Positions 19,777-42,828 of a stretch of 42,828 bases of DNA are shown piece by piece. The translations under genes and the position numbers were made by a program. A model generated the notes under the pieces. It was not told the origin of the DNA. It was given only the letters and a program-made list of their open reading frames with translations, and searched no databases. This DNA comes from Mameliella sp. MMSF_3455. Lineage in GTDB: Bacteria; Pseudomonadota; Alphaproteobacteria; Rhodobacterales; Rhodobacteraceae. Location: assembly GCF_030733205.1 (NCBI RefSeq), contig NZ_JASHJL010000045.1:1-42828 (forward strand), read 5' to 3'. Position 1 is the stretch's first letter. Each line of letters begins with the position of its first letter.

Positions 19777-19787
19777 GCAATTGTCGC

Positions 19788-19809
19788 AAGCCCCTGTGAC
19801 CGGGGGCTT
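19788..19809 (+). other. Intercistronic stem-loop before the AlgQ-type binding-protein gene
   Basis: AAGCCCC (19788-19794) and GGGGCTT (19803-19809) form a 7-bp stem in the 81-bp gap between the permease stop and the algQ-type start. A second, stronger stem-loop follows algQ (21455-21477), so the binding-protein cistron is bracketed. Such elements commonly let binding-protein mRNA outlast its operon neighbours. Confidence 0.5.
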
Positions 19810-19857
19810 CGACCGAAACGACCCCGAACTTCACAGAGTCGCAAAAGGGAGGATACC

Positions 19858-21429: not shown

Positions 21430-21454
21430 TCCCGTCCATTTCCCAAGAACACGC

Positions 21455-21477
21455 GTGCGGCCGACCCCCGGCCGCAC
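21455..21477 (+). other. Intercistronic stem-loop after the AlgQ-type gene
   Basis: GTGCGGCC (21455-21462) and GGCCGCAC (21470-21477) make an 8-bp perfect GC stem with a seven-base loop in the 82-bp gap between the binding protein and the lyase. There is no U-tract, so read-through is expected. It fits 3'-end protection of the binding-protein transcript. Confidence 0.55.
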
Positions 21478-21511
21478 ACCCCCCTCTTGTACCTGAAGAA
21501 AGACCTGACCC

Positions 21512-23836: not shown

Positions 23837-23858
23837 TACCGCACACGAGGACACACTC

Positions 23859-24191: not shown

Positions 24192-24221
24192 TCCAACAAA
24201 AAACAAATGGGAGACAAAGAC

Positions 24222-25145
24222 ATGACCAAACCCGTCATCGGTTTCATCGGCCTCGGCCTCATGGGTGGCAACATGGTGGAGAACCTTCAGAAGAGGGGCT
24301 TCGAACTGGTCGTCATGGACCTCAACAAGGACGCGGTGAAAGCGGTCCTTGACCGCGGAAACGCGAAAGAAGCCGCCTCGCCCAAGGAGTTGGCCGAGGC
24401 GAGCGACATCGTCATGCTTTGCCTCACCACGTCCGAGGTGGTGGAAAAGGTTGTCTACGGTGACACCGGCATCCTGGCCGGCATCTCGGAAGGCAAGGTG
24501 CTGGTCGATTTCGGTACCTCGATCCCGGCCTCGACCCGCAAGATCGGCGCCGACCTCGCCGCGAAGGGCGCGGGTATGGTCGACGCGCCGCTGGGCCGCA
24601 CTCCGGCCCACGCAAAGGACGGCCTGCTGAACATCATGGCCGCCGGCGACAAGGCGACCTTCGACAAGGTCAAGCCGGTGCTCGAAGAACAGGGCGAGAA
24701 TATCTTCTACCTCGGTGCACTGGGCGCGGGACACACCACCAAGCTGATCAACAATTTCATGGGCATGACCACGGTCTGCACCATGAGTCAGGCCTTCGCC
24801 GTTGCGACGCGTGCCGGGGTCGACCGTCAGCAGCTCTACGACATCATGTCGACCGGGCCGTCGAATTCGCCCTTCATGGGGTTCTGCAAGAACTACGCCG
24901 TGGATGGTGTCAGCGACCTTGGCTTCTCGATCAACAATGCCAACAAGGACCTCGGGTATTTCCTGAAAATGGCCGAAGACCTGGGCACCCGGGCCGAGAT
25001 CGCCGAAGGCACCTCGCATAACCTCGCCGCGGCCGTGGCGGCTGGTCTGGGCGATGGCAACGTTCCGGAAATCTTCGACTATTTCCTTGAGTTGGCGGCC
25101 GACGGCGCGGACCGCGAAGCCACGACGCAAAGCGCGGCAAGCTGA
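24222..25145 (+). CDS. 3-hydroxyisobutyrate-dehydrogenase-family reductase, candidate DEH reductase
   Basis: A 307-residue beta-hydroxyacid dehydrogenase. ATG 24222 is preferred over an in-frame ATG at 24207, because GGGAG (24209-24213) then acts as the ribosome site. Seen: NAD(P) fold [12 protein letters not shown] at the N-terminus, substrate motif [14 protein letters not shown], catalytic Lys174 and the following Asn in [14 protein letters not shown], and C-terminal helical NAD_binding_11 domain. Vibrio splendidus DehR, which reduces DEH to KDG, belongs to this family, and the operon position fits. The neighbouring SDR gene is a second candidate for the same step, so one of them may have another substrate. 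Confidence 0.82.
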
Positions 25146-25888
25146 TGAGGTTCCAGGGCAAGACAGCCATTGTCACCGGCGGTGGCCGCGACATCGGGCG
25201 CGCCTGCGCGATCAAGCTGGCCTCCGAGGGTGCCAACGTGGCGATCAACTATTTCGCCAGCAGCGCCGGTGCCGAAGCCACGGTGGCAGAGATCGAAAGA
25301 CAGGGTGGCAAGGCCGTCGCGGTACAGGGCGATCTGAGCAAACCGGCCGAAGTCGACGCACTGGTTTCCAGAACGGTCGAAGCCTTTGGCAGTGTCGATA
25401 TCCTCGTGAACAATGCGGGCGGCCTGATCGCCCGCAAGACCATCGCGGAGATGCCGCTGGAGCATTGGCAGGCGGTGATGGACCTGAATCTGACCAGCAC
25501 CTTCCTGATGATCAAGGCCTGCCTGCCGCACATGACCAGCGGCGCAATCGTCAACCTTGCCAGCCAGGCCGGACGCGATGGCGGTGGTCCCGGCGCGGTG
25601 GCTTACGCCACGTCGAAAGGGGCCGTCATGACCATGACGCGCGGACTGGCCAAGGAACTGGGGCCGGAGATCCGCGTCAACGCGCTGTGCCCGGGCATGA
25701 TCGACACCGATTTCCACAACATCCACACGCCCGATGCCGGTCGCCGTGGCCTGGAAGCCGCCGCGCCGCTGAAACGGCAAGGCACGCCCGAAGATACCGC
25801 CAACCTGGTGGCCTATCTCGCCAGCGACGAGGCCGCCTACATCACCGGGGCGAATGTCGACATCAATGGCGGGATGCTCTTTTCCTGA
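25145..25888 (+). CDS. Short-chain dehydrogenase/reductase, candidate DEH reductase
   Basis: A 247-residue classical SDR. It overlaps the previous stop (TGATG at 25143-25147). Cofactor loop TGGGRDIGR (about 11-19), NNAG motif, and catalytic Ser140-Tyr154-Lys158 (LASQAG; YATSK). The C-terminal [20 protein letters not shown] is typical of FabG-like enzymes. In Sphingomonas A1 the DEH reductases A1-R and A1-R' are SDRs, so this is as good a candidate for DEH to KDG as the preceding gene. The two could differ in NADH versus NADPH use (inference). Confidence 0.85.
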
Positions 25889-25917
25889 GCCCCGCCACCG
25901 CAAGCGGAGGCACCAAG

Positions 25918-26835
25918 ATGCGCGTTCTCGCGATTGGCGAATGCATGGCCGAACTGGCCCCGGCAGAGCGCCCGGACGATTACCGTCTGGGCTTTGCCGG
26001 GGACACGTTCAACACCGCCTGGTACTTGGCGATGCTGTCGCCGGACGTGGAGGTGTCCTATTTCACGGCGGTCGGGGATGATGCCCTGTCCGCCCGGATG
26101 GTACAAGTCATCTCTGACAGCGGGATCGACACCCGTCACATCCGCCGGCTGCCCGGGAAATCCGTCGGGCTTTACATGATCGCCCTGAAAAATGGCGAAC
26201 GCAGCTTTTCCTATTGGCGCGGCCAGTCCGCCGCGCGCAGCCTGGCCGGGGACGCGCAAGCACTGGCGGCCGCCATCGCCGAGGCCGATCTGGTCTATGT
26301 CTCCGGCATCACCTTGGCCATTCTCGAGCAGGGCGGCCGCGAAACGCTTTTGCAAGCGCTTCGTTCTGCCCGAAGCGCGGGCAAGAGCGTCGCCTTTGAT
26401 CCGAACCTGCGTGTGCACCTCTGGAGCACTCCGACAGAGATGACGGAAGCGATCATGCGCGCCGCCGCCTGCTGCGACATTGCCCTTCCCTCGTTCGAGG
26501 ACGAGGCGCGTTGGTTCGGCGATGAGGACGCAAAGGCCACGCTGGAACGCTACGCAAGGGCTGGTGCAAGCACCGTCATCGTCAAGAACGGTCCGGAACC
26601 GGTTCTGTATCGTGAGGACGGCACAGATGACATCACGATGGTGCCACGCCTGACCTCTGTCATCGACACGACCGCTGCCGGGGACAGCTTCAACGCTGCG
26701 GTCTTTGCAGGTCTTTCTGCTGCGCTGCCGCTGTCCTCTTCGATCGAACAGGCCTGCCGTCTGGCCGGTCAGGTCGTGCAGGGCAAAGGTGCGTTGGTTC
26801 CGGTTGGCCTGGATCTGCTGGATCAATTTGCCTGA
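25918..26835 (+). CDS. kdgK: 2-keto-3-deoxygluconate kinase (KdgK, PfkB family)
   Basis: A 305-residue ribokinase-fold sugar kinase that phosphorylates KDG to KDPG. The frame is open far upstream, but ATG 25918 is set by GGAGG at 25906-25910 and by the start of homology (MRVLAIGECMAELAP). Seen: N-terminal GFAGDTFNTAWYLA substrate region, VGDDALS, and the PfkB signature DTTAAGDSFNAAVFAG with the catalytic base Asp256. The sequence is KdgK-like (GECMxEL start). It accepts KDG from both the alginate branch and the mannonate dehydratase branch of the same regulon. No Eda-type KDPG aldolase gene is in the window. Confidence 0.88.
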   Translation: MRVLAIGECMAELAPAERPDDYRLGFAGDTFNTAWYLAMLSPDVEVSYFTAVGDDALSARMVQVISDSGIDTRHIRRLPGKSVGLYMIALKNGERSFSYWRGQSAARSLAGDAQALAAAIAEADLVYVSGITLAILEQGGRETLLQALRSARSAGKSVAFDPNLRVHLWSTPTEMTEAIMRAAACCDIALPSFEDEARWFGDEDAKATLERYARAGASTVIVKNGPEPVLYREDGTDDITMVPRLTSVIDTTAAGDSFNAAVFAGLSAALPLSSSIEQACRLAGQVVQGKGALVPVGLDLLDQFA

Positions 26836-26861
26836 CCGCGCGAACGACAAGGATACTCCCC

Positions 26862-27605
26862 ATGCCAAATCCCCCAGCCGCCGACGCCGTTCCACTTGAT
26901 CCGCGCACGCTTGACCGCCTGTCGCGGGCCAGCACGGCAACGGTCGCCACGCTGCTGTATAAGCGCGGCTTTCACAATGCCTATGTGCAAGGCGTCGCCC
27001 CCCTGGCAAAGGGCCAACCAACCATGGTCGGTCCAGCGTTCACCTTGCGCTATATTCCCGCGCGGCCCGATACCGACCCCATCGAGGCCTTCCGTGAGCC
27101 CGATCACCCGCAGCGCGTCGCAATCGAGACCTGTCCGGAAGGTGCGGTGCTGGTGATGGATTGCAGGCAGGATGCCTCTGCCGCGTCCGCGGGGTCGATC
27201 CTTTTGACCCGGCTCGAGATGCGCGGCGCGGCGGGCGTGGTGACCGATGGTGGTGTCCGCGATGCCGACGGTGCGGCGGCGCTTGACATGCCGGTCTTTG
27301 CCGCAAAGCCCTCTGCGCCGACAAATCTGACCAAGCACCACGCGATAGACATCGGCCTCCCGGTTGGCTGTGGCGGCGTTGCCGTCTATCCCGGCGATGT
27401 CGTGTTGGGCGACGGCGACGGTGTGATGATCATCCCCCGTCACTTGGCCGATGAAATCGCTGAAGAAGTCGGCCCCATGGAGGAATTCGAGGCTTTCGTC
27501 CTGGAGGAAGTGCGCCGCAATACGCCGGTGATCGGCCTCTACCCCGCTACGGATCCGGCCGTTCTGGAGCGGTTCGAGAACTGGCGCCAAGCGCGACAGG
27601 ACTGA
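26862..27605 (+). CDS. RraA-family protein, probable class II pyruvate aldolase
   Basis: A 247-residue member of the RraA/HMG-aldolase/dimethylmenaquinone-methyltransferase-like superfamily. Members include 4-hydroxy-4-methyl-2-oxoglutarate aldolase and other metal-dependent aldolases that release pyruvate, besides the RNase E inhibitor RraA. Seen: an N-terminal STATVATLLYKRG, the phosphate/oxyanion-loop-like GSILLTRLEMRGAAGVVTDGGVRDAD (with the Arg-Asp pair typical of the aldolase subgroup), and the C-terminal V-x-PGD-VVLGDGDGVMIIP. It follows kdgK by 26 bp at the end of the uronate operon, exactly where a KDPG/KDG-cleaving aldolase is needed and the usual eda is missing. Aldolase function on KDPG is an inference. 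Confidence 0.8.
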   Translation: MPNPPAADAVPLDPRTLDRLSRASTATVATLLYKRGFHNAYVQGVAPLAKGQPTMVGPAFTLRYIPARPDTDPIEAFREPDHPQRVAIETCPEGAVLVMDCRQDASAASAGSILLTRLEMRGAAGVVTDGGVRDADGAAALDMPVFAAKPSAPTNLTKHHAIDIGLPVGCGGVAVYPGDVVLGDGDGVMIIPRHLADEIAEEVGPMEEFEAFVLEEVRRNTPVIGLYPATDPAVLERFENWRQARQD

Positions 27606-30640: not shown

Positions 30641-31105
30641 ATGGATGATATGAACCACGATCCGAGCAACGACACCTCGGAGGATGCCATTGCGGCCTAT
30701 GTTCTCGACGAACAGATCGGCTATGCCTTGCGAAAGGCAAACCAGCGGCACATGACCATCTTTGGCGAAAGGATGCTTGACGGCCTGACGCCAACTCAGT
30801 TTTCAGCCCTTTTCCGCCTGGTTGAAAACCCCGTGCCGCAGTCCCAGAATGCGCTTGGACGCAGTGTCGCGATGGATGCAGCCACGATAAAAGGGGTCGT
30901 CAACCGCTTGGAGGCGCGCGGCCTTGTGGTGACCCGGAAGGACGAGGTTGATCGCCGGCGTTACGTGATCGAGGCTACCGCGAAGGGCAGGGAGCTGATC
31001 AAGGCGGCGATGCCAGTGATGGCGGACATCACAGAGGCAACGTTGGCGCCTCTTACCGTTGCTGAACGGCGCACGATCTTGCGATTGCTGGCAAAGCTGA
31101 GTTGA
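30641..31105 (+). CDS. MarR-family regulator 1 (NicR-like position)
   Basis: A 154-residue winged-helix regulator of the MarR class. Seen: N-terminal dimer helix (EQIGYALRKANQRHMTIFGERML), LTPTQFSALFRLVE, the recognition region QNALGRSVAMDAATIKGVVNRLEARGLV, and the beta-wing with the conserved DRRRYVIEATAKG. The nicotinate genes of Pseudomonas putida are repressed by the MarR protein NicR, so a similar role here is reasonable, with an aromatic or pyridine acid as effector. It opens the pyridine island and is followed 54 bp later by a second MarR gene. Confidence 0.88.
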   Translation: MDDMNHDPSNDTSEDAIAAYVLDEQIGYALRKANQRHMTIFGERMLDGLTPTQFSALFRLVENPVPQSQNALGRSVAMDAATIKGVVNRLEARGLVVTRKDEVDRRRYVIEATAKGRELIKAAMPVMADITEATLAPLTVAERRTILRLLAKLS

Positions 31106-31159
31106 TTGGCGCGTTGTGCGTGTAACTTGGGGCGCCTGGTTGCGGAAAGGTCAAGGGTG

Positions 31160-31633
31160 ATGAACGACCACACCACGAAACCCGCTAGTGATGTGTCCGC
31201 GATGATCGAGGCCTACGATCCGCGCAACCACCCGGCGCAGTTGGTGCGCCGTGTCCACCAGCGCGGGGCCCAGCTTTTTACCCAGAACGTGCGGCATCCA
31301 AACCTTTCGGTGACGCAGTTTGTGGCTCTGGTCACGTTGCTGAAGGTGGGGTCGGTAACTCAAAGCATGCTTGGGCGGCTGACTTCGATGGACCCGTCCA
31401 CCACGACGGTGGTGGTGCGCAAGCTGGAGCGCGAAAGGCTGATCGAGAAGCGGCGGAGTCTCGAGGATCAGCGTTCGTCGGTTATCGAACTGACCGAAGC
31501 CGGACGCCAATGCGCGATCAATCATGTTCCGGTCAGCGTGGAAGCGGGTGAAAAACTGCTCGAGCCGCTCACCGTGATCGAGCAGCAACTCTTCATGGAG
31601 TTGCTGCGAAAGGTGATTGCGGCCGAAGACTGA
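31160..31633 (+). CDS. MarR-family regulator 2
   Basis: A 157-residue MarR-type regulator. The frame is open from 31106; ATG 31160 is preferred, preceded by an adjacent in-frame GTG and by GGAAAGG at about 31143-31149. Seen: the N-terminal helix HPAQLVRRVHQRGAQLFTQNV, LSVTQFVALVTLLKVG, recognition helix QSMLGRLTSMDPSTTTVVVRKLERERLI, and wing KRRSLEDQRSSVIELTEAG. It is clearly different from MarR 1, so the pair is not a recent duplication. Two MarR genes in tandem could sense different intermediates, for example the upper- and lower-pathway acids. Confidence 0.87.
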   Translation: MNDHTTKPASDVSAMIEAYDPRNHPAQLVRRVHQRGAQLFTQNVRHPNLSVTQFVALVTLLKVGSVTQSMLGRLTSMDPSTTTVVVRKLERERLIEKRRSLEDQRSSVIELTEAGRQCAINHVPVSVEAGEKLLEPLTVIEQQLFMELLRKVIAAED

Positions 31634-31783
31634 CGACTCGCTGCCCGTACTGCCATTTTGATGCGTACACGTTTAAAATTCCGTCCGTTCGCGTCGGATG
31701 TAGGTTGGCTCTTTGATTAATTTGTGAGCCAAAACCGCGGATTGGGCAAAGTTTCCGGCTATTGCTAAATAAAATCTTGCGCC

Positions 31784-31797
31784 TTGATCTGAATCAA
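31784..31797. promoter_or_regulatory. Perfect FNR/FnrL box before the Rieske oxygenase gene
   Basis: TTGATCTGAATCAA matches the FNR consensus TTGAT-N4-ATCAA exactly and is the form used by rhodobacterial FnrL. It lies 74 bp upstream of ATG 31871 in a 237-bp AT-rich gap (31634-31870) that clearly contains the promoter. Placement this close to the start would fit either repression or activation when oxygen is low. The downstream gene encodes an O2-consuming oxygenase, which makes anaerobic shut-off logical. Confidence 0.65.
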
Positions 31798-31870
31798 TTT
31801 ACTTTGAGTACGTAGCAAATTGGCCCCTGCGGGAAGGCCCCTTTAAGAACGCAAGCTCGGGAGTGATGGG

Positions 31871-32941
31871 ATGACGACTCTGGTTCGGAACGCATGGTAC
31901 GTGGCCGCTTGGTCGCGCGAGATCGACGATGAACTGCGGCGTTTCACCATCCTCGGCGATCACATCCTTCTCTACCGCCGCACGGATGGCACCGTTGCTG
32001 CGTTGGAGGATCGGTGCCCGCACAGGTTGTTGCCGCTGTCAAAAGGCAAGCGGATCGGAGATGCGGTGCAATGCGGTTACCACGGGTTGACCTTCGGTCC
32101 TGACGGCAAGTGCACCCGGGTTCCGGGCCAGGACAAGATCCCGCCCTCGGCCTATGTCGAAAGCTACCCGATCGAGGAGCGTCACGGGATCGTCTGGATC
32201 TGGATGGGTGAGCGGCACCGCGCAGATCCGGATGCGATTTTCGATTTGCCGCAATTCACCGACCCGGGTTGGCATGCCCATCACGGGGACGCGTTGCACC
32301 TGGAATCCAACTACCTCAACGTGGCCGAAAACCTGGTGGACCCGGCGCATGTGAGTTTTGTGCACCCGACGACACTGGGCAACTCGGCCTCGGAGAACGT
32401 GCCGGTGCATGTCTCGACCGAAGGCGAGACCATCACCGCCTGGCGGTGGATTCGCGATGCGGAGCCGATTGGCTTCTTCAAGGCGTTCGGCGGCTTTGAG
32501 GGGAATGTCGACCGCTGGCATTATTATCACCTGCATCTGCCGTCGATCGCGGTGATCGACTTCGGCTCGGCGGACGCGGCCGACCAGATTGCCGAAGATG
32601 ACCGGGATAGTGGCATCCGAGTGCTTGCACTGCACTTCATGACGCCTGTCGATGAGGGCTACACCATCGACCGCTGGATGCACCTGCGGAACACGGCGGT
32701 CGATACCGAAGAGGCCTCGGACAAGATTGATGCAATGCTGCGCATCGCGTTTGCCGAGGACAAGGAGATTCTGGAGGCTGTGCACGCAGAAGAGCAGCGC
32801 CCGATGAAGCGGCGCCCGATCCGTATCGCCATCGATCGTGGGCCGATGGTCTACCGCAAGCGCATCAACGACCTTCTGGAAACCGAGCGGACGCTCGACG
32901 CCTCGGCAGAGAGCAATGCGTCCTTCGTCTACCATGACTGA
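31871..32941 (+). CDS. Rieske non-heme iron oxygenase, VanA-like
   Basis: A 356-residue oxygenase component. The N-terminal Rieske domain has C49-P-H51 and C68-G-Y-H71 as [2Fe-2S] ligands (RCPHRLLPL; QCGYHGLTF). The C-terminal catalytic domain carries the mononuclear iron site AENLVDPAHVSFVHP, with Asp157 as the electron bridge and His160 and His165 as ligands. The family includes vanillate O-demethylase and many phenol- or ring-carboxylate oxygenases that release formaldehyde or hydroxylate a ring. The gene for its reductase follows 25 bp later, then a carboxylate transporter and genes for 2,5-dihydroxypyridine breakdown. It is therefore the best candidate for forming 2,5-dihydroxypyridine from an imported pyridine acid; substrate unproven. 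A perfect FNR box lies in its promoter. Confidence 0.9.
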   Translation: MTTLVRNAWYVAAWSREIDDELRRFTILGDHILLYRRTDGTVAALEDRCPHRLLPLSKGKRIGDAVQCGYHGLTFGPDGKCTRVPGQDKIPPSAYVESYPIEERHGIVWIWMGERHRADPDAIFDLPQFTDPGWHAHHGDALHLESNYLNVAENLVDPAHVSFVHPTTLGNSASENVPVHVSTEGETITAWRWIRDAEPIGFFKAFGGFEGNVDRWHYYHLHLPSIAVIDFGSADAADQIAEDDRDSGIRVLALHFMTPVDEGYTIDRWMHLRNTAVDTEEASDKIDAMLRIAFAEDKEILEAVHAEEQRPMKRRPIRIAIDRGPMVYRKRINDLLETERTLDASAESNASFVYHD

Positions 32942-32966
32942 TGCTGTTCTGGCCGGAGGCGCTGAC

Positions 32967-34019
32967 ATGCTTGATATGGGCAAGACGGCGCCGCTCACTC
33001 TGGAGGTGACAGAGCGTGTTCGGGAAAGTCGAAACGTCCTGTCTTTCCGGTTCAAGGTGGTGAAGGGTGAAATAGCGCCCTTCATCCCCGGCCAATACCT
33101 TCCCATTCGTCTTGGTCTGCCGGAGCGGCCGATATCGACCTATACGATATCCTCCGACCCGCGCGACCGCAGCGGTTACAGGATCAGCGTCAAGCTGGAG
33201 CCAGAGGGGAAGGGGGGCTCTCGCCATTTGCACGAGGTTGGCGAGGTCGGCGCTCGGTTCCCGGCTGAGCGGCCACGGGGGACGTTTGTCCTGGAAGATG
33301 ATGAGCGTCCGGTCCTGTTGCTTACCGGCGGGATCGGTGTGACGCCGGCGCTGGCGATGCTGTCTGAACTGGCCCGACAGCCGGATCGGCCGACGTGGTT
33401 TGTGCATGCCTGCCGGAATGCAGAAGAGCACTCCTTCGCTGCCGAGGTGAAGGTGCTGGCAGAGGCCGCCCCGAACGTAACCACGCATGTCGCCTATGCC
33501 GAAGGAGACGAGGAGGATATCGCCGACGGACGTTGCCAGTCCGTCGGACTACTCGACCGCGAGACGCTGCGCAGGCTGTTGCCGCTAGACGCCTATCGCG
33601 TCTACCTCTGTGGGCCGGACGGATTCATGAAGGCGATGCGGGCGGAACTGGTCAGCCTTGGCGTGCCGGACAGCGAAATTCACCAGGAGTCTTTTGGCGG
33701 AGCCGTTGCCGATGGCTCGCAACGTGAGCCGTCTGGCCGACCTGCGGCGGCGTCGGACGGGGCCGGTCCCGTGGTCAGATTTGCGCGGTCGGACCTCGAA
33801 GTCACTTGGGACGGATCGAGCGGAACCCTCCTTGAATTCGCCGAGGCGCAGGGGTTGGCGCCGAACTTTGAATGCCGTGACGGTATCTGCGGCACCTGTG
33901 CTTGCCGGAAGATCTCAGGCGAGATTTCTTATGCCGAAGAGCCGCTCGATTCGCCCGGAGAGGAGTATGTCCTCTTGTGTTGCTCGTTTCCGAAAGGGGA
34001 CGTGACTCTCGATTTGTGA
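32967..34019 (+). CDS. VanB-like oxygenase reductase (FMN/FAD, NAD and plant-type 2Fe-2S domains)
   Basis: A 350-residue electron-transfer protein passing electrons from NAD(P)H to the Rieske oxygenase. GGAGG at 32955-32959 lies seven bases before ATG 32967; an in-frame ATG at 32934, overlapping the oxygenase stop, is less likely. Domain order: flavin domain (RPISTYTISS), NAD domain (LLLTGGIGVTPALAMLSEL; VYLCGPDGFM), then a ferredoxin domain with C303-x4-C308-x2-C311 and a distal Cys at 338/339 (ECRDGICGTCACR; LLCCSF). This order is that of phthalate-dioxygenase-reductase/VanB proteins. It is the second gene of the pair and completes a two-component system. Confidence 0.89.
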   Translation: MLDMGKTAPLTLEVTERVRESRNVLSFRFKVVKGEIAPFIPGQYLPIRLGLPERPISTYTISSDPRDRSGYRISVKLEPEGKGGSRHLHEVGEVGARFPAERPRGTFVLEDDERPVLLLTGGIGVTPALAMLSELARQPDRPTWFVHACRNAEEHSFAAEVKVLAEAAPNVTTHVAYAEGDEEDIADGRCQSVGLLDRETLRRLLPLDAYRVYLCGPDGFMKAMRAELVSLGVPDSEIHQESFGGAVADGSQREPSGRPAAASDGAGPVVRFARSDLEVTWDGSSGTLLEFAEAQGLAPNFECRDGICGTCACRKISGEISYAEEPLDSPGEEYVLLCCSFPKGDVTLDL

Positions 34020-34027
34020 CGCTCTTC

Positions 34028-34064
34028 GCACAATGATCCCTCAAAATCTGCTCAAAAATTGTGC
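34028..34064. promoter_or_regulatory. Promoter region of the TTT transporter with a spaced GCACAAT/ATTGTGC dyad
   Basis: The 293-bp gap 34020-34312 is AT-rich in its second half and must contain the transporter promoter. It includes a perfect but widely spaced inverted repeat: GCACAAT at 34028-34034 and ATTGTGC at 34058-34064, centres 30 bp apart. This could be a pair of regulator half-sites or chance. No gene is seen in this stretch. Confidence 0.3.
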
Positions 34065-34312
34065 AGATCCAGAGTGGGGTCATGGGGCGCACGAAAAAAA
34101 CATGCAGCGGGGAATATTGTTTCTATGCAAATGAATTTTTCCGCGCTTTTATGTGACGAGACGATGAAGAACGCCGCCAACCGGCCGCGGAAAAACTAGG
34201 AAAATCTGCCTTGGAATGAGGGGCAATAGCGAATGTCGCGGGCTGCGAGGCGGGCCGTGAACAGGTGGGATGTGCCTGCCGAAATCAACAGGGAAACGAC
34301 GAAAGGAACGCC

Positions 34313-35299
34313 ATGAAACGCCGTCAACTCTTCGCTACCGTCACGGGGCTGATGACGCTTGCCAGCCTCCCGATGACGTCCGCGCTGGCGCAGGATGCCT
34401 ATCCCAGCGAGCCGATCCACATCACGGTCGTCTGGCCGGCCGGTGGCGGGCATGACCTGGTCGGGCGCCTGATCGGCCATGAGCTGTCCGAGATCATGGA
34501 TACCGCGGTCGTGGTCGACAACGTGACCGGTGCCGGTGGCTCGACCGGCATCCGCCACATCGCCGAGGCAGACCCGGATGGCTACACCATTGGCGTGATG
34601 GGCCTGCATGCCGTGTCGCAATCCTTCATGAACCCTGCAGCACCCAAGCTCGACGGTCTGGACCCGATCGCCTACATCAGCGACGAACCTGGCGCCATTG
34701 AGGTGAGCGTCGACATGGGGATCGATACGCTTGACGACTACATCGCCGCGATGAAGTCGGACCCGATGTCGCTGATGAACGGCAATGATCCGCAGGGCGG
34801 CAACTCCTTCATCTTCGCGAGCGTCATCCCGGACGCTCTGGGCGTGAACATGATGAAGCTCCCCTATCCCGGGCATGCCCCCACCGTGACCGCCTTGCTG
34901 ACCGGCGAGGTCCAGACGGCGACGCTTCCGATCCCGCCGATCCTCGAACACGCCAAGGCCGGAAAGGTGAAGGTGCTCGGGGTCGCTGCGGAACAGCGCC
35001 ATCCGCAATTGCCTGACGTTCCCACGTTCAAGGAGCAGGGCTACGACATCGTGGTGAATGATTTCGTCATGCTGGTGGCGCCGGTCGGTATCCCGCAGGA
35101 TGTCCGGGCCAAGCTGGAAGAGGGATTGCTCAAGGCAATCAAGAGTGCCGGCTTTACCTCTGCCGCAGCGGAAAACGGCATGGTGCTGCGTCCGGGAGGT
35201 GCCGACATGGCGGCGGAGGAGCTCGCGAAACAGGTTGAGCTTGTCTACCCTATCCTGGAGCAAGCCGACCTTGTTGCCGAGGAACTGAAGCGGAAGTGA
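34313..35299 (+). CDS. tctC: TctC/Bug-family periplasmic binding protein of a TTT transporter
   Basis: A 328-residue extracytoplasmic solute receptor. ATG 34313 follows AAAGGA (34302-34307) and gives a signal peptide (MKRRQLFATVTGLMTLASLPMTSALAQ). Seen: the Bug-family N-terminal signature YPSEPIHITVVWPAGGGHDLVGRLIG and DNVTGAGGSTGIRHIAEADPDGYT, then LTGEVQTATLPIPPILEHAKAGKVKVLGVAAEQRHP near the middle. These receptors bind carboxylates such as citrate, nicotinate-like and phthalate-type acids. With TctB and TctA following, this is a complete tripartite tricarboxylate transporter, placed between a Rieske oxygenase and nic genes. Confidence 0.9.
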   Translation: MKRRQLFATVTGLMTLASLPMTSALAQDAYPSEPIHITVVWPAGGGHDLVGRLIGHELSEIMDTAVVVDNVTGAGGSTGIRHIAEADPDGYTIGVMGLHAVSQSFMNPAAPKLDGLDPIAYISDEPGAIEVSVDMGIDTLDDYIAAMKSDPMSLMNGNDPQGGNSFIFASVIPDALGVNMMKLPYPGHAPTVTALLTGEVQTATLPIPPILEHAKAGKVKVLGVAAEQRHPQLPDVPTFKEQGYDIVVNDFVMLVAPVGIPQDVRAKLEEGLLKAIKSAGFTSAAAENGMVLRPGGADMAAEELAKQVELVYPILEQADLVAEELKRK

Positions 35300-35306
35300 C
35301 GCCCGC

Positions 35307-35333
35307 AAACGGGGCGGTGACTGCGCCCCGTTT
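35307..35333 (+). other. Strong stem-loop after the TctC gene
   Basis: AAACGGGGCG (35307-35316) and CGCCCCGTTT (35324-35333) form a perfect 10-bp stem with a seven-base loop, eight bases after the tctC stop. It resembles a terminator (with TTTCC after), but tctB and tctA follow without a new promoter-like gap. Partial termination or mRNA stabilisation would give more binding protein than permease. Confidence 0.6.
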
Positions 35334-35359
35334 CCAAAATCACGAAACAGGAGCCAGCC

Positions 35360-35875
35360 ATGACACCGCCCATCGAGGGATCCGCCCGCAAGACCTTTGC
35401 AGCCGGCCTTTTCTTTCTCCTTCTGGCGGGTGCGGGTTGGCTTCTGCTCCGACACAGCATCACGCTGTTTTCGGGAAACCAGATGCCAGGTGACCCTGGG
35501 CCCTTCTTCCTGTCCCAGTTGTGCCTGACAATTCTCGCACTCGCGGGCGTCCTTCTGCTGGTGTTCGGGGGCTGGAGCTGGGCGCGCGAGACGCGCACAC
35601 ACAGACACACAGAGGCCATGGTGAACACGGTGAGGGAGTGGTCGCTCTCGGCCGGTTTCGTGCTGACATTGCTGGCGATGCCGGCAGCGATGCGCCTGCT
35701 GGGGACGCCTGCCGCAGTGGCGCTCTTTTCCATCGGCTGGATCTACGTACTGCTCGTCTCCATCAGCGGCCATTCGTGGCGAAACCTGATCGAGGCGACG
35801 GCCTTCGGTGCGGCCACCGCCGTGTTCATCCATCTGTTCTTCGTGCGTCTACTGACGCTCCCGCTGCCCGTTTGA
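35360..35875 (+). CDS. tctB: TctB-family small permease of the TTT transporter
   Basis: A 171-residue membrane protein with four hydrophobic helices, the standard size and topology for TctB. The first is KTFAAGLFFLLLAGAGWLLLR, and the last is a C-terminal AAVFIHLFFVRLLTLPLP segment with the F-x-x-x-L pattern of the family. Sequence conservation in this family is weak, so the call depends on its place between tctC and tctA. CAGGAG precedes the ATG at 35360. The spacing to tctA is 15 bp. Confidence 0.85.
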   Translation: MTPPIEGSARKTFAAGLFFLLLAGAGWLLLRHSITLFSGNQMPGDPGPFFLSQLCLTILALAGVLLLVFGGWSWARETRTHRHTEAMVNTVREWSLSAGFVLTLLAMPAAMRLLGTPAAVALFSIGWIYVLLVSISGHSWRNLIEATAFGAATAVFIHLFFVRLLTLPLPV

Positions 35876-35890
35876 GAGAGGGTCGAACCG

Positions 35891-37429
35891 ATGTTGCTTG
35901 AATCGTTCTTCACTGTGCTCGCCGATTTCGCCACGAGCCCTGCCATGTTGGGTCTCGTCGGGCTTGGCGCAATCCTCGGACTGGTGCTGGGGGCAATACC
36001 GGGAATTTCATCGACTATGGCGCTGGCAATCCTCATGCCGGTGACCTTTACGATGGAACCCGGTGTGGCAATCCTGTTCCTGATCTCGGTTTTCATGTCG
36101 AGCGTCTACGGCGGTTCGATATCGGCCATCCTGATGAAATTGCCTGGCACGCCGGCGTCGATCTTTACCCAGATCGACGGCTATCCGATGGCGCAGAGCG
36201 GTCGGGCCGGCCACGCCCTGAACTACGCGTTGGTGGCTTCTACGGTCGGCGGCATGGTCGGCCTGGCCTTGCTTGTCGTGCTGGCCCCCGTGCTGGCGGA
36301 TTTCGCGACGAATTTCCGCAGCCCCGAATTTGCCGCCGTGGCGCTGTTCGGCATCGTCATGTTGTCCTTCGCGTCGAACGGCTCGACCCTGGTGGCCAGC
36401 GTGGTCGGCTTCGTCGGCATCTTGCTGGGCATGGTGGGCTTCGATGCGCTGACGGATGCACAGCGGATGACGATGAACCAACCCATGCTGCAATCGGGCT
36501 TGAATCTGATCCCTGTCATCATCGGGTTGTTCGGCTTGGGTGAGATCCTGCAGAACCTCGTGCGCTTTGGTGACGCGCCAACGGCGCGACCTGCCATTGG
36601 CAAGGTGATGCTGCCGATTGCAGAATTGGCCAGGCGCTGGAAAGTCATGCTGCGGGGCTCGGTGATCGGCACGTTCATCGGGGCAATTCCGGCGGCGGGA
36701 TCCGCGGTGGCGGTTTCCATCGCCTATGCCCAGGAGCGGCGGTTGTCGAAAGAGCCCGAGACATTCGGCACCGGCCATCCTGACGGCCTCGTTGCGCCGG
36801 AGGCCGCAAACTCCGCTTCCGTCGGTGGCTCGCTCATTCCCTTGATCGCGCTGGGCGTTCCGGGAGACACCATCACCGCCGTTCTGATGGGCGCGTTGAT
36901 GGTGCATGGCCTGACGCCCGGGCCCTTGCTCTTTGCCAATGACCCGACATTCGTGTCCTGGATCTATGTCTCGGTGCTTCTGGCGCTGGTGGCGACGCTG
37001 GTTCTGGGCCTTGGCATGATCCGTGCTGCCGTGCTGGTGACGCGCATTCCGCCGCAACTGATGTATGTCTTTATCGCAGTGTTTTGCGTTATCGGCGCCT
37101 TTGCAATCCGCAATGACATGAACGACGTCTACGTGATGATTGCCTTCGGTGTGGTCGGCTTCGTCTTTTCGCGCATCGGCTTGCCGGTGACGCCGCTGGC
37201 CTTCGGGCTGATCCTCGGCCCGATACTGGAAGAAAACCTGCGGCGCAGCCTGATGATTAGCCAGGGGTCGTGGAAGATCTTCATCGATCGGCCGATCTCG
37301 GCAACTTTGCTTGGTGTCTGCGTCCTTCTGGTGGCCTTGCCGTTGATCACCGCGTTGCTGCACCGCCTCCAGGGATCGCTTGCCGGCAAGAAGAGCGAAA
37401 ACATTCCCAAAAATTACCCTGGTGAGTAA
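35891..37429 (+). CDS. tctA: TctA-family large permease of the TTT transporter
   Basis: A 512-residue integral membrane protein with about eleven or twelve helices. The two TctA signature repeats are clear: GLVLGAIPGISSTMALAILMP near the N-terminus and GTFIGAIPAAGSAVAVSIAYAQE at about residue 255. GGSLIPLIALGVPGDTITAVLMGALMVHGLTPGPLLF is also highly characteristic. It is the transporting subunit, working with TctB and the TctC receptor through proton or sodium symport. The carboxylate carried is probably the substrate of the pyridine pathway, by position. Confidence 0.92.
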   Translation: MLLESFFTVLADFATSPAMLGLVGLGAILGLVLGAIPGISSTMALAILMPVTFTMEPGVAILFLISVFMSSVYGGSISAILMKLPGTPASIFTQIDGYPMAQSGRAGHALNYALVASTVGGMVGLALLVVLAPVLADFATNFRSPEFAAVALFGIVMLSFASNGSTLVASVVGFVGILLGMVGFDALTDAQRMTMNQPMLQSGLNLIPVIIGLFGLGEILQNLVRFGDAPTARPAIGKVMLPIAELARRWKVMLRGSVIGTFIGAIPAAGSAVAVSIAYAQERRLSKEPETFGTGHPDGLVAPEAANSASVGGSLIPLIALGVPGDTITAVLMGALMVHGLTPGPLLFANDPTFVSWIYVSVLLALVATLVLGLGMIRAAVLVTRIPPQLMYVFIAVFCVIGAFAIRNDMNDVYVMIAFGVVGFVFSRIGLPVTPLAFGLILGPILEENLRRSLMISQGSWKIFIDRPISATLLGVCVLLVALPLITALLHRLQGSLAGKKSENIPKNYPGE

Positions 37430-37495
37430 TTAAACTTGAGGATTTGCCTGTGCAACGGCTAGTAGGGGGGGGGACTCTGAAAACCGGATAGCGCC

Positions 37496-38164
37496 ATGAC
37501 CTCAACAAGCCAACGTCGTAAACCGGGGCGCCCAAAGGGCGGGCCGGAACTCCGCGAGGTGATCCTGGACCGGGCCGAATTGCTGTTTGCCGATCATGGG
37601 TTCAATGGCGCCAAGGTACGGGACATCGCGACGGAGGCCGGAGTCAACCAGGCCCTCGTCCGTTACTATTTTGGCTCCAAGCAGGATCTGTTCGATGCGG
37701 TGGTTCGCCGGCGTGGAAGTGTGATTTCGGGCGCACGGCATGTGCTGCTGGACGAGCTTCTGTCGCGCGATGTGGCGCCAACCGTTGCGGAATTGGTGCG
37801 ATGCTATCTAAAGCCGCAATGGGACATGAAAAATTCCGGCCCAAACGGCGCGGCATTTGTCCGCCTTCAGGCGCGTTTGCACGCCGAGCAGGAAGAGCAC
37901 GCCTTTCGTCTGCGGCGCGAAGTCTATGATGCGTCCGTCAAGCGATACATCGAGGCGCTTTCAGAGATCTTGCCCGAGATTCCGAAAGAGGTGATCTCGA
38001 CCAGGATGGCCTTTGCCGTGGGTACATACATGTTCATGCTGAACGATCTCGGGCGCATCAACGATCTGACCGACGGTCAGGTCGGGGACCTCGGCGGCGC
38101 CGCGCTTCTGGATCAACTTGTTACCTTCATTTCCGCAGGTCTTGCTGCACCGCTGAGCACCTGA
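37496..38164 (+). CDS. TetR-family transcriptional regulator
   Basis: A 222-residue TetR-type repressor. The N-terminal HTH is clear (AELLFADHGFNGAKVRDIATEAGVNQALVRYYFGSKQDLFDAVV, about residues 28-71). The C-terminal ligand-binding helical domain is about 140 residues. It lies 66 bp after the TctA gene and 102 bp before nicE, between transporter and lower-pathway genes. A run of eight Gs precedes it (about 37465-37473), and there is no good ribosome site. It may control the nicEDXF operon through the palindrome-like site at 38181. Confidence 0.89.
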   Translation: MTSTSQRRKPGRPKGGPELREVILDRAELLFADHGFNGAKVRDIATEAGVNQALVRYYFGSKQDLFDAVVRRRGSVISGARHVLLDELLSRDVAPTVAELVRCYLKPQWDMKNSGPNGAAFVRLQARLHAEQEEHAFRLRREVYDASVKRYIEALSEILPEIPKEVISTRMAFAVGTYMFMLNDLGRINDLTDGQVGDLGGAALLDQLVTFISAGLAAPLST

Positions 38165-38180
38165 CGGCCCTGCTGCTCAA

Positions 38181-38192
38181 ATACATTTGTGT
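38181..38192. promoter_or_regulatory. ATACATTTGTGT site before nicE (second copy of the 30460 palindrome)
   Basis: This 12-mer differs at one base from the perfect palindrome ATACATTTGTAT at 30460-30471, and the flanking A is shared as well. It lies in the 102-bp AT-rich gap between tetR and nicE, a likely promoter. Shared sites at two promoters of the island suggest one regulator for both. Confidence 0.4.
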
Positions 38193-38266
38193 GCTAACGA
38201 TTTTTGTTGAAATTATACCGTCGAGTAATTATCCGGAATGTGACGTTGATTTCAGAGGCGAGAATC

Positions 38267-39016
38267 ATGACCCCGATCCGAGTTGGCCAGATCGTGCCGA
38301 GTTCGAATGTTACGATGGAGACAGAGATCCCCGCGCTTTTGCGTGCCCGAGAGACGGTCTTCCCGGAGCGTTTCACGTTTCATTCCTCGCGGATGCGGAT
38401 GAAGCACGTAACCAAGGAAGAGCTTGCGGCGATGGATGCGGACAGCGACCGTTGTGCACTCGAACTCTCGGACGCGAAGGTGGACGTGATGGGCTATGCC
38501 TGCCTCGTTGCCATCATGTCGATGGGACACGGCTATCACCGTACTTCGCAAGAGCGACTGCGCGGCGTGACACGGGACAATGACGCGGAGACACCGGTTG
38601 TCACCTCTGCTGGCGCCCTGGTCGAGGGAATCAAGGCGATCGGGGCCCAAAAGGTCGCCGTGGTCGCGCCCTACATGAAGCCGCTGACCGAGATGGTGGT
38701 GGACTACATCCGCAACGAGGGCATCGAGGTGGTCACCTGGCGCGCGCTGGAAATCCAGGACAACCTCGCCGTTGCGGCGCATGACCCGACGAACCTGCCC
38801 GGGATCGTCGCGGATATGGACACCTCCGGCGTCGACGCGGTGGTGCTCTCGGCCTGTGTCCAGATGCCCTCGCTGCCGGCGGTTTCCACCGTCGAGGCGC
38901 AAGTCGCCAAGCCGGTGCTGACAGCAGCCATCGCCACAACCTGGCAGATGCTCAAGGCGCTTGATCTGGAAACCCGCGTTCCGGGCGGCGGCACGCTGCT
39001 TTCCGGCGCCTACTGA
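38267..39016 (+). CDS. nicE: Maleate cis-trans isomerase (NicE), Asp/Glu racemase superfamily
   Basis: A 249-residue cytoplasmic isomerase converting maleate to fumarate, the last step of the nicotinate lower pathway. ATG 38267 is used (AGAGGCGAG upstream); the frame is open from 38204. The two catalytic cysteines are Cys79 (MGYACLVAIM) and Cys197 (LSACVQMPS), three positions before the Cys82/Cys200 I recall for P. putida NicE. N-terminal VGQIVPSSNVTMETEIP is the classic maleate-isomerase beginning. It is the first gene of the nicE-D-X-F run; fumarate enters the TCA cycle. Confidence 0.88.
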   Translation: MTPIRVGQIVPSSNVTMETEIPALLRARETVFPERFTFHSSRMRMKHVTKEELAAMDADSDRCALELSDAKVDVMGYACLVAIMSMGHGYHRTSQERLRGVTRDNDAETPVVTSAGALVEGIKAIGAQKVAVVAPYMKPLTEMVVDYIRNEGIEVVTWRALEIQDNLAVAAHDPTNLPGIVADMDTSGVDAVVLSACVQMPSLPAVSTVEAQVAKPVLTAAIATTWQMLKALDLETRVPGGGTLLSGAY

Positions 39017-39026
39017 GGAGGGTGAC

Positions 39027-39812
39027 ATGAGCTTTGGATACAACATTCACGCCAACGGCATCCGCCAGCACCTGATCCGCTGGGACGGGCCCGAAGGGGC
39101 ACCGCAACTGCTGTTGATTCCGGGCATCACCTCGCCCGCGATCACCTGGGGATTTGTCGCTGAACGGCTGGCGCAGCGCTTTGAGGTGCATGTGCTGGAC
39201 GTGCGCGGCCGTGGCCTGTCGGAGAGCGGTGACCTGGATTACACGCTGGACGCCATGGCCGACGATGCCATCGCGGTGGCGCGGACACTGCGGCAACCAA
39301 TCATCCTTGGCCATTCCATGGGGGCGCGCATCGCCATCCGCGCCAATGCCCGCGACCCCGAACCCTTCGACGGGTATATCCTGGTCGATCCGCCGATGTC
39401 GGGGCCGGGGCGCCGTGCCTATCCGTCGAAATGGCCGTGGTACAGCGACAGCATCCATATGGCAGCGCGGGGCTGCTCGGTCGAGGAGATGCGCGCCTTC
39501 TGCCCGACCTGGACCGACGAGCAGGTCGCCCTGCGCGCGGAGTGGCTGCATACCTGCCACTGGGGGGCAATCCGCATCGCCTTCGACGGCTTCCACACCG
39601 ACGACATCCACCAGGACCTGCCGAAGATCGACAAGCCCGCGCGGCTGGTCATCGCCGGCGGCGCCACCGTGGTCGACGAAGCCGACCAGGCAGAGGTCGC
39701 GCAGCTGAACCCCAAGATCGAACAGCGCATCGTGCCGAAGGCCGGCCACATGATCCCCTGGGACAGCCTCGACGGCTTCCTGGACGCGGTCATGGATTTC
39801 GACGCCCGATAA
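39027..39812 (+). CDS. nicD: N-formylmaleamate deformylase (NicD), alpha/beta hydrolase
   Basis: A 261-residue alpha/beta hydrolase that splits N-formylmaleamate into maleamate and formate. ATG 39027 follows GAGGAGG. The catalytic triad is Ser97 (LGHSMGAR), Asp121 (LVDPPMSG) and His241 (AGHMIPWD). All are four positions before the P. putida NicD triad I recall (Ser101, Asp125, His245), an unusually good fit. Other features: IPGITSPAITWGF oxyanion region and LDVRGRGLSES. It lies 10 bp after nicE and 23 bp before nicX, whose product is its substrate. Confidence 0.88.
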   Translation: MSFGYNIHANGIRQHLIRWDGPEGAPQLLLIPGITSPAITWGFVAERLAQRFEVHVLDVRGRGLSESGDLDYTLDAMADDAIAVARTLRQPIILGHSMGARIAIRANARDPEPFDGYILVDPPMSGPGRRAYPSKWPWYSDSIHMAARGCSVEEMRAFCPTWTDEQVALRAEWLHTCHWGAIRIAFDGFHTDDIHQDLPKIDKPARLVIAGGATVVDEADQAEVAQLNPKIEQRIVPKAGHMIPWDSLDGFLDAVMDFDAR

Positions 39813-39835
39813 ACCTCATACAGGGAGGATCCGTG

Positions 39836-40867
39836 ATGGATCATGCAAGCTTTACAGATATCTGCCTGCACCAGCTGAAGATGTCCGGCGTGCGGAAAGA
39901 CGAACGCCTGATCGTGCTGACCCAGGGCAATGAACGCCTGGACTACGCCGATGCCTTCATGGCCGCGGGCCGCATCCTGGGCGCCAACATGTATCACATG
40001 CGCCTGCCGGCGCCGCCTGTCGTCGGGGCCTGGGCTGTGGGGCAGACCGGCCTCGCGGCGATGCCCGAGGCGGTCGAGGCGCTGAAGAACTGTGACATGC
40101 TGATCGACTGCGTGTTCCTGCTGTTCAGCCCGGAACAGTTCGCAATCCAGGACGCGGGCACCCGGATCTTGACCGCGGTGGAGCCGCCCGAGCTGCTGGC
40201 CCGGATGCTGCCCAGCCAGGAACTGCGCGAGAAGGTCGAGATCGGCGCCGAGTATCTGGCGAAGGCCAAGGTGATGCGCATTACCTCGCCGCATGGCACC
40301 GATGTCACCTACAAGCTCAACACCTATCCCACCGTGGCCGAATACGCCTGCACCGACGAACCGGGCCGCTGGGACCACTGGCCCTCGGGCTTCGTCTTCA
40401 CCGGCGGGGACGATGACGGCGTGGACGGGCAGATCGTGGTGGCGCCGGGCGACGTGCTCTTGCCGCAGAACATGTACGTGCGCGACCCGATCACCTACAC
40501 GATCGAGAAGGGCTGGATCACCGATATCCGCGGCGGGCTGGATGCGGAACTGGTCAAGTCCTACATGGCCGCTTTCGACGACCCGCGCGGCATGGGGATG
40601 AGCCACGTAGGCTGGGGCATGAACCGCGATGCGCACTGGCACGGCATGACCCCGGGCGAATTCCCCGGCGGCATGGGCATGGAGCCGCGCAGCTTCTACG
40701 GCAACGTGATGTTTTCGACCGGGCCCAACAATGAACTGGGCGGCCCGAACGACACCGCCTGCCACCTGGATATCCCGATGCGCGGCTGCTCGCTCTTCCT
40801 CGACGACGAGCCGATCGTGATCGACGGCGATCTCGTCGTGAAGGAGATGCAGATCGCGCGCCGCTGA
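39836..40867 (+). CDS. nicX: 2,5-dihydroxypyridine 5,6-dioxygenase (NicX)
   Basis: A 343-residue Fe(II) extradiol-type ring-cleavage dioxygenase that opens 2,5-dihydroxypyridine to N-formylmaleamate. It belongs to an M29-aminopeptidase-like fold, not to the classical extradiol families. AGGGAGG precedes ATG 39836. Candidate metal ligands are His257 (MSHVGWGMN) and the His310-Leu-Asp312 motif (CHLDIPMR). These lie eight positions before His265, His318 and Asp320 of P. putida NicX as I recall. It is the diagnostic enzyme of the pathway and shows that the substrate handled by the island is 2,5-dihydroxypyridine or a close analogue. Confidence 0.9.
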   Translation: MDHASFTDICLHQLKMSGVRKDERLIVLTQGNERLDYADAFMAAGRILGANMYHMRLPAPPVVGAWAVGQTGLAAMPEAVEALKNCDMLIDCVFLLFSPEQFAIQDAGTRILTAVEPPELLARMLPSQELREKVEIGAEYLAKAKVMRITSPHGTDVTYKLNTYPTVAEYACTDEPGRWDHWPSGFVFTGGDDDGVDGQIVVAPGDVLLPQNMYVRDPITYTIEKGWITDIRGGLDAELVKSYMAAFDDPRGMGMSHVGWGMNRDAHWHGMTPGEFPGGMGMEPRSFYGNVMFSTGPNNELGGPNDTACHLDIPMRGCSLFLDDEPIVIDGDLVVKEMQIARR

Positions 40868-40953
40868 GCGCGGCCCGTTCCCCCAGTCAGCGCCGTCTCT
40901 GTCCGGGTCCCGCGATCCGGCGGGGCGGACGCGCCCCTCCGGAGTTACACGAG

Positions 40954-41580
40954 ATGTCCCAGCAACAGGTTTATGACGACGCCGGTTTCGGGCGGAAAGT
41001 GCCACGCGGCACCCGCCCGGCCATCGTGGTGGTGGATTTTTCCTACGGGTTCACCGACACGCAATATCCTACCGCCGCCGACATGAGTGCCCAGATCGCC
41101 GCGACCCGCCGGCTGACCGAGGCCGCGCGTGCTGCCGGTTTCCCGGTGATCTACACCACCATCGCCTACCAGCCCTGGGAGGCGGCGACCCTGCCTTGGC
41201 TGCAGAAGGCCACGGGCATGGCCGCGCTCACCGCGGGCTCGCGCCTGGTCGAGATCGACGCCGCCACCGGCATCCGCCCCGAGGATCCGGTGATCGTTAA
41301 GCACGGCGCTTCGGCCTTCCACGGCACCAACCTTGCCGGCCTGCTCACCGGCGCCCGCATCGACACACTGATCGTCACCGGTGCCACGACCTCCGGCTGC
41401 GTCCGCGCCACCGTCGTCGACGCCGTCCAGTCTGGCTTCAACGTCCTCGTCCCCGAAGACTGCTGCGCGGACAGGGCAAAACAACCTCATGACGCAAATC
41501 TGTACGACATCGGACAAAAATACGCCGACGTCACCAACGCAGAGGAAATCCTAGGCTGGATGGAAACCCTTTCCGCCTGA
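40954..41580 (+). CDS. nicF: Maleamate amidohydrolase (NicF), isochorismatase-like cysteine hydrolase
   Basis: A 208-residue cysteine hydrolase that converts maleamate to maleate and ammonia. The triad is Asp28 (VVVDFSYGF), Lys116 (VIVKHGASAF) and Cys149 (TTSGCVRAT), each within one position of the Asp29/Lys117/Cys150 described for NicF. The N-terminus YDDAGFGRKVPRG is typical of the NicF/N-carbamoylsarcosine-amidase branch. GGAG precedes ATG 40954. It lies 86 bp after nicX and ends the island; a hairpin follows at 41662-41686. Confidence 0.89.
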   Translation: MSQQQVYDDAGFGRKVPRGTRPAIVVVDFSYGFTDTQYPTAADMSAQIAATRRLTEAARAAGFPVIYTTIAYQPWEAATLPWLQKATGMAALTAGSRLVEIDAATGIRPEDPVIVKHGASAFHGTNLAGLLTGARIDTLIVTGATTSGCVRATVVDAVQSGFNVLVPEDCCADRAKQPHDANLYDIGQKYADVTNAEEILGWMETLSA

Positions 41581-42268: not shown

Positions 42269-42828
42269 TGTCAATCGGGAGGCAATCTTGCCCCCTTATC
42301 GGCGCCGAAAATTGATCCCCTCGGAGCTGAGCTGGCCCGGCGCTGCGTAGTCCTCACACAGCGCAGCCGTATCGGGCCCGCGGGTTCTCGGTCATTCACG
42401 GGTCTTGAAGCGCCAGCTCTCGTTGCCGGTTTCGAGGATGTCACAGTGATGGGTCAGCCGGTCGAGGAGCGCGGTTGTCATCTTGGCGTCGCCAAAGACC
42501 GAAGGCCATTCCCCGAAGTCGAGATTGGTTGTCACGATGATCGAGGTGCGTTCGTAGAGGCGGCTGATGAGATGGAACAGCAACTGGCCGCCGGTCTGGG
42601 CGAAGGGAAGGTAGCCAAGCTCGTCAAGGATCAGGAAGTCGAGGCGGCACAGCAGGTCTGCGGTGCGCCCCTGCCGGTCGGCACGAGCTTCGGCATCGAG
42701 CTTGTTCACCAAGTCCACGGCATTAAAGAACCGCCCTCGTTTGCCTCGCCGGATGCAGGCCCGGGCGATGCTCACAGCAAGGTGGGATTTGCCGGTCCCG
42801 GTGCCGCCGATGAGCACAACATTGCGCT
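42269..42828 (-). mobile_element. IS21-family insertion sequence, right-end part
   Basis: The element begins at about 42269 with TGTCAATCGG, immediately after the broken orfA, and extends off the window. The TG terminus and the GCGCCGAAAATTGATCCCC stretch at 42301-42319 resemble IS21-family right-end repeats. It carries istB on the minus strand; istA would be further right. The target duplication cannot be seen because the other end is outside. Confidence 0.7.
42392..42828 (-). CDS. istB: IstB, ATP-binding helper of IS21 transposition, N-terminus off the window
   Basis: An AAA+ ATPase that assists the IstA transposase in target capture. The last 145 or so residues are visible; the frame remains open through [16 protein letters not shown] past position 42828, so the Met at 42817 is internal. 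Seen: Walker [20 protein letters not shown], Walker [15 protein letters not shown], sensor 1 region [20 protein letters not shown], and the typical C-terminal [23 protein letters not shown]. It ends at TGA 42392-42394. About 100 residues are missing at the N-terminus. The visible part is intact, so the element may be active. Confidence 0.93.

Follow-up and report, generated by a model that had tools for sequence, protein, structure and literature searches.

A Rieske oxygenase clade linked to two nicotinate pathways, with trigonelline as its probable substrate

Contig NZ_JASHJL010000045.1 of Mameliella sp. MMSF_3455 (C52; 42,828 nucleotides, analysed whole and here called the window) is one of 111 contigs in a genome of 5.7 Mb, and carries at 30641-41580, on the forward strand, a run of genes in which a VanA-type Rieske oxygenase and its reductase stand ahead of enzymes of nicotinate (nic) catabolism. 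The run opens with two MarR-type regulators, MarR1 (30641-31105) and MarR2 (31106-31633, with an alternative start possible at 31160), both recognised by eye and both listed in a preliminary description of this DNA made from the sequence alone. These are followed by the Rieske oxygenase (31871-32941, 356 amino acids), proposed here to be a trigonelline N-demethylase, and its reductase (32967-34019, 350 amino acids; an earlier start at 32934 is possible). A tripartite tricarboxylate transporter comes next, with the solute-binding protein TctC (34313-35299; Pfam TctC, 1.2e-42), the small membrane protein TctB (35360-35875; named from its placement between TctC and TctA, with no NCBIfam match) and the large membrane protein TctA (35891-37429; Pfam TctA, 7.7e-136), and then a TetR-family regulator (37496-38164; Pfam TetR_N and TetR_C_30) which we take to resemble NicS. 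The run ends with NicE, NicD, NicX and NicF. All the genes that the preliminary description had listed are present and open, by Pfam or PDB matches or, for TctB, by placement; the two MarR genes are there as it said, but they precede the stretch that it had marked out as the island.

The lower nic pathway set is complete in the window according to matches to PDB sequences: maleate isomerase NicE (38267-39016; 4fq7, E 6.3e-130), N-formylmaleamate deformylase NicD (39027-39812; 4l0c, E 5.7e-114), 2,5-dihydroxypyridine 5,6-dioxygenase NicX (39836-40867; Pseudomonas putida NicX 7cn3, E 2.8e-89) and maleamate amidohydrolase NicF (40954-41580; amidase 4l07, E 7e-91). An NCBIfam search gave no name to the nic proteins of the window. 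Catalytic residues were compared one by one for NicX, using the iron ligands and substrate residues that PMC7910607 reports for the P. putida enzyme. The window protein and the eight close orthologues checked all retain the iron ligands H265, S302, H318 and D320 as well as the substrate residues E177 and H189. His105, given in the same source as a member of the substrate hydrogen-bond network, corresponds to residue 97 of the window NicX, which is Phe in this protein, in the eight orthologues and in one distant relative. Distant NicX relatives (34-42%) occur in 13 genomes (L018-L030) of a sample of 292 genomes from the order; the one in L018 has Gln at the E177 equivalent and may use a different pyridine substrate.

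The preliminary description noted, correctly for a window that is one contig of 111, that no upper-pathway gene accompanies this set, and suggested that the Rieske oxygenase stands in place of the known upper-pathway enzymes. It also named nicA, nicB and nicC among the genes to look for elsewhere. Queries with a relative's NicC and NicB led to contig C21 of this genome, where all three lie, with NicC (85%) at C21:101932-103059 and NicB (69%) at C21:98397-101753. In this region (L095, L096) nicA, nicB and nicC are followed by a small protein and by a transporter, identified by eye, relatives of which adjoin nic genes in other genomes too. The C21 NicC matches the solved 6-hydroxynicotinate 3-monooxygenase 5eow (E 7.2e-163), NicA has two 2Fe-2S domains, and NicB has molybdopterin and cytochrome c domains. 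By gene content, then, the genome is predicted to encode a complete nicotinate pathway split over two contigs, so that the very set whose presence elsewhere would speak against the replacement idea was found, and that idea fails. The case is an example of the false pathway gap that can appear when only one contig is read. As in the aerobic pathway of P. putida, both nicABC and nicEDXF are present; the differences are that here the set lies on two contigs and that an extra block of Rieske, reductase and TctCBA genes stands ahead of nicEDXF. An IstB-like transposition ATPase (by eye) lies at 42392-42817 of the window, near the contig end, and the assembly likely breaks there, after nicF. In Mameliella alba a nicC copy (L097:19836-20978, 79% to nicC of the window's genome) directly follows nicF on the opposite strand; no second close nicC was found in the window's genome. 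Ahead of nicABC on C21 (L095:3937-11095) are an ABC transporter, an old-yellow-enzyme-type oxidoreductase of 685 amino acids and another, GbcA-type Rieske protein (GbcA 289 bits, under the cut-off of 670), a set that we presume to resemble one for betaine or stachydrine demethylation.

The distribution of the Rieske gene points to its metabolic context. In the order sample, close NicX (83-100%) occurs in 9 of the 292 genomes, the Rieske clade (67-100%, with the next relative at 43%) in 14, and 6-hydroxynicotinate reductase, the marker of a second nicotinate pathway, in 76; the close NicX and reductase sets are disjoint and together comprise 85 genomes. All 14 genomes with the Rieske clade carry one of the two pathways, nicX in three and the reductase in 11 (Fisher p 1.4e-8, relatedness ignored). 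As a control, other VanA-like Rieske genes occur in 57 genomes without this clade, of which 19 fall within the 85 (p 0.42). This pairing, 14/14 against 19/57, supports the assignment of the Rieske gene to pyridine-acid catabolism made in the preliminary description. It also makes it highly improbable that a common type of vanillate or lignin-aromatic demethylase stands here by chance, a reading which the VanA_C domain would suit but which is further opposed by the conserved operon position in the loci kept for comparison and by a charge reversal in the predicted pocket. The expected co-occurrence with nicX was found in three of the 14 genomes; the other 11 have the reductase and lack close NicX.

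A scan of named genomes, of which the best 80 loci were kept, gave a similar picture. Five loci have the Rieske gene beside nic genes, 58 have reductase-cluster markers and 17 have neither in the locus, a locus being placed in the reductase-cluster class (HNR) if it holds at least one of four markers (the reductase, two AA_synth proteins and the molybdenum (Mo) hydroxylase) above set identities, so that the class does not always mean the reductase itself. Markers were counted by tblastn; scripted gene calls of the comparison loci fell short on some low-GC loci. Two of the loci (L141 and L149) share one contig. When the whole genomes behind the 17 loci without local markers were searched, the reductase was found in 12 and NicX in three, so that 78 of the 80 loci have a marker of one of the pathways either close by or elsewhere in the genome. 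In genome G237 a single contig holds nicABC, nicX and, some 14 kb from nicX, the Rieske operon; in G200 the operon adjoins the nicABC block, with nicEDXF on the far side, an arrangement repeated in Paracoccus tibetensis (L105). The gene of the partner reductase directly follows the Rieske gene in all five nic-type named loci. At four loci (L099:11224-12195, L100:11055-12173, L101:8039-9154 and L102:11064-12182) a xylose-isomerase-like TIM-barrel gene, absent from the window, stands between the Rieske and reductase genes; the L100 protein, the only one of the four tested, scored 26.4 bits, under the cut-off of 31.1. Most occurrences of the clade are in Rhodobacterales, with some in other Proteobacteria. 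Among its members, Sagittula stellata E-37 is of the reductase type and Mameliella alba (L097) of the nic type. Rhodobacterales-type clusters are carried as well by L107 (a metagenome bin titled Cytophagaceae) and L115 (Enemella evansiae, Actinomycetota), perhaps through misbinning or contamination.

These counts bear directly on the central proposal of the preliminary description, that the Rieske pair makes 2,5-dihydroxypyridine and so replaces NicAB and NicC. The presence of nicX and the absence of nicABC within the window had spoken for it. With nicABC on C21, with Rieske genes together with nicABC in G237 and G200, and with 58 of the best 80 loci holding reductase-cluster markers against five holding nic genes, such an activity is not needed. 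Direct formation of 2,5-dihydroxypyridine was accordingly rejected as extremely improbable, given nicABC in the genome and the 11 of 14 Rieske genomes that use a pathway without that compound.

The second pathway is recognisable from its cluster. The record name "6-hydroxynicotinate reductase" appears in 17 of 26 plasmid matches, and the cluster also contains a Mo-hydroxylase with its FAD subunit, a UPF0280 protein and two AA_synth proteins, with an amidohydrolase in part of the loci; the one amidohydrolase tested matches the enamidase 2vun (7.9e-111). In PMC3511419 this cluster in Azorhizobium caulinodans and relatives is described as a nicotinate cluster that proceeds via tetrahydro-6-oxonicotinate, the pathway of Eubacterium barkeri. 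Relatives that have this Rieske clade possess the cluster, and the window's own genome lacks it (no match at E 1e-5). The reductase route does not include 2,5-dihydroxypyridine; what it has in common with the nic route is nicotinate and 6-hydroxynicotinate, so the simplest product of the Rieske oxygenase is one of these two. Two loci without the Rieske gene (L178:8173-18346 and L179:7931-18106) have nicA/nicB relatives (55-58%) near the reductase, with no close Mo-hydroxylase marker found there, an apparent hybrid cluster which is consistent with the reductase cluster starting from nicotinate. Within the Rieske tree, calculated with 10 of the 16 outgroup rows left out, six nic-type rows group with L098, L100, L102, L103 and L104 (one group of 11, support 100/99); NicX is present in three of these five and the reductase in two, counting genome or locus. 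Such a grouping would follow if the partner pathway had changed once or a few times.

It is thus very probable that the Rieske pair feeds the node formed by nicotinate and 6-hydroxynicotinate. The gene is present in only 3 of the 9 close-nicX genomes and 11 of the 76 reductase genomes, as expected for a peripheral step. The pair is best seen as an optional front end that serves two different nicotinate pathways. The same counts argue against an enzyme that acts on a ring acid inside the pathway, such as an accessory hydroxylase working on nicotinate or 6-hydroxynicotinate. The tight linkage to pathway genes would agree with such a role, but the pathways occur without the Rieske gene in 6/9 and 65/76 genomes and the usual hydroxylase genes remain beside it, which makes the role very unlikely. 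Uptake genes tend to accompany the front end. Of the 11 reductase loci of the order sample with the Rieske gene, 10 have LivK of a Liv-type transporter, compared with two of the 16 examined without it (from 65 such genomes). TctC is found in four of the five nic-type named loci; at L109 an MFS-like transporter (by eye) takes its place. MarR1 has relatives (44-60%) next to nic genes or reductase clusters, while those of MarR2 stand just ahead of the Rieske gene within the nic-type subclade.

The Rieske protein itself has Rieske and VanA_C domains (PF19112, 160.8 bits against a cut-off of 23.5), and its partner has FAD, NAD and 2Fe-2S domains, all by Pfam. Its closest solved relatives by sequence are 7qwt and the dicamba O-demethylase DdmC. 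No curated NCBIfam cut-off is reached, the best being SdmA with 86.4 bits against 600, and GbcA is absent from the NCBIfam families matched. The 2Cys-2His Rieske site and the 2-His-1-Asp iron site (C49, H51, C68, H71, H160, H165 and D297) are kept in 81/81 clade sequences. With DdmC and other VanA-type demethylases it shares the fold family, these ligands, a separate reductase and, probably, oxidation of an exocyclic methyl group. What sets the clade apart from DdmC is its link to nicotinate pathways and the residue at position 230, which is Asp in 81/81 clade sequences against Lys or Arg in 16/16 relatives of about 40% identity, within a stretch that aligns without gaps; the same 16 relatives have Asn where the clade has His255. 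In the sequence alignment D230 falls on Asn230 of DdmC, which according to PMC10511449 touches the carboxylate of dicamba. A reversal of charge at this presumed substrate-facing position fits a substrate with a positive ring nitrogen.

A demethylase-type enzyme, a nicotinate product and an acid in the pocket are together best read as a trigonelline N-demethylase. Both compounds are deduced from gene content and alignment: the product would be nicotinate, and the substrate is probably trigonelline (N-methylnicotinate), demethylated to nicotinate and formaldehyde. The preliminary description had mentioned N-demethylation as an alternative and placed trigonelline among the compounds to be tried, and it is this alternative that fits the comparative data best. 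The clade as a whole would then represent a distinct group of trigonelline N-demethylases and a second bacterial route for this compound, demethylation first and nicotinate next, joined to two chemically different ring pathways and usually equipped with its own uptake system; we put the probability of this reading at roughly 0.58. In the proposed mechanism, the reductase would relay electrons from NADH to the Rieske cluster, from which they would reach the mononuclear iron; activated O2 would then hydroxylate the N-methyl group of trigonelline, and breakdown of the hemiaminal would release nicotinate and formaldehyde. In Mameliella, NicAB and NicC from C21 would convert nicotinate via 6-hydroxynicotinate to 2,5-dihydroxypyridine, which NicX, NicD, NicF and NicE of the window would take to fumarate, while in relatives the same Rieske clade would supply the nicotinate pathway of Mo-hydroxylase, 6-hydroxynicotinate reductase and enamidase.

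Pairing with both pathways sets the product node and leaves the substrate free, and the enzyme could form nicotinate or 6-hydroxynicotinate from a different compound, for instance N-methyl-6-pyridone-3-carboxylate, 6-methoxynicotinate or a 3-alkylpyridine. This possibility is rather unlikely, in that the conserved Asp, set against Lys or Arg in relatives, suits a cationic N-methylpyridinium over a neutral pyridone or ether. Such pyridones, methoxy compounds and alkylpyridines also seem rarer in nature than trigonelline, which counts against them. In their favour, the reported targets of VanA-type enzymes include O-methyl, N-methyl and C-methyl groups (PMC10511449, on TsaM). Trigonelline accumulates in higher plants and has been detected in ocean transect samples, as stated in PMC8269262. 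A pathway for homarine is the subject of a 2026 paper cited in PMC13390433. Homarine is an unlikely substrate of the present clade, since its demethylation yields picolinate, which neither lower pathway uses.

Several observations weigh against the trigonelline assignment. The pocket argument for D230 comes from sequence alignment alone, and the Fisher values are uncorrected for the relatedness of the genomes. Two of the best 80 loci (L145 and L160, both metagenome bins) have neither pathway. At L035:5394-9171 TctCBA adjoins nicF in a genome where the Rieske gene of the clade was not found, so its cargo may be nicotinate or a different pyridine acid; a Liv-type transporter stands beside the reductase without the Rieske gene in L178 and L179. 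These arrangements mean that the transporters are not strictly tied to the Rieske gene, and a putative nicotinate ABC transporter already belongs to the known reductase cluster (PMC3511419). None of the genes recognised in the clusters is one for formaldehyde oxidation. The first bacterial trigonelline step described in PMC8269262 is ring opening by TgnA/TgnB, a monooxygenase reaction on the same compound for which Rieske N-demethylation is proposed here. The same source reports that trigonelline supports better growth of Ruegeria pomeroyi than homarine does. The best 80 loci kept include none from Ruegeria, so this growth may depend on another system.

Oxidative N-demethylation of a betaine by a Rieske enzyme has parallels. 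Stachydrine is N-demethylated by the Rieske enzyme Stc2. GbcA, as described in PMC12093977, does the same for glycine betaine. That paper also cites a title placing genes essential for trigonelline use on the symbiotic plasmid of Rhizobium meliloti; the Ensifer and Sinorhizobium plasmid matches to the Rieske protein, among 60 of 155 records listed, are at 43-44% and fall outside the clade. Among the open-licence papers listed by our searches, none describes a Rieske trigonelline demethylase in its title or in the abstract shown. If the proposed function is right, the gene would serve as a marker for trigonelline use tied to nicotinate and formaldehyde metabolism, and the enzyme would be a Rieske oxygenase for pyridinium N-dealkylation.

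A palindrome lies ahead of the Rieske gene at 31705-31732. No complete copy was found ahead of 11 related Rieske genes, although two of them have pieces of it, and the idea of a conserved operator at this position was dropped. Promoter-like sites number 5 against 2.6 (sd 1.4) in shuffled sequence and terminator-like sites 9 against 9.8; neither set was used. Elsewhere in the window, a row of genes at 16775-27605 encodes a sugar ABC transporter, a DUF4962/heparinase-type lyase, a cupin-like protein, an NAD-binding dehydrogenase, an SDR-like protein, a PfkB kinase and an RraA-like aldolase, and presumably resembles a cluster for alginate or uronate utilisation.

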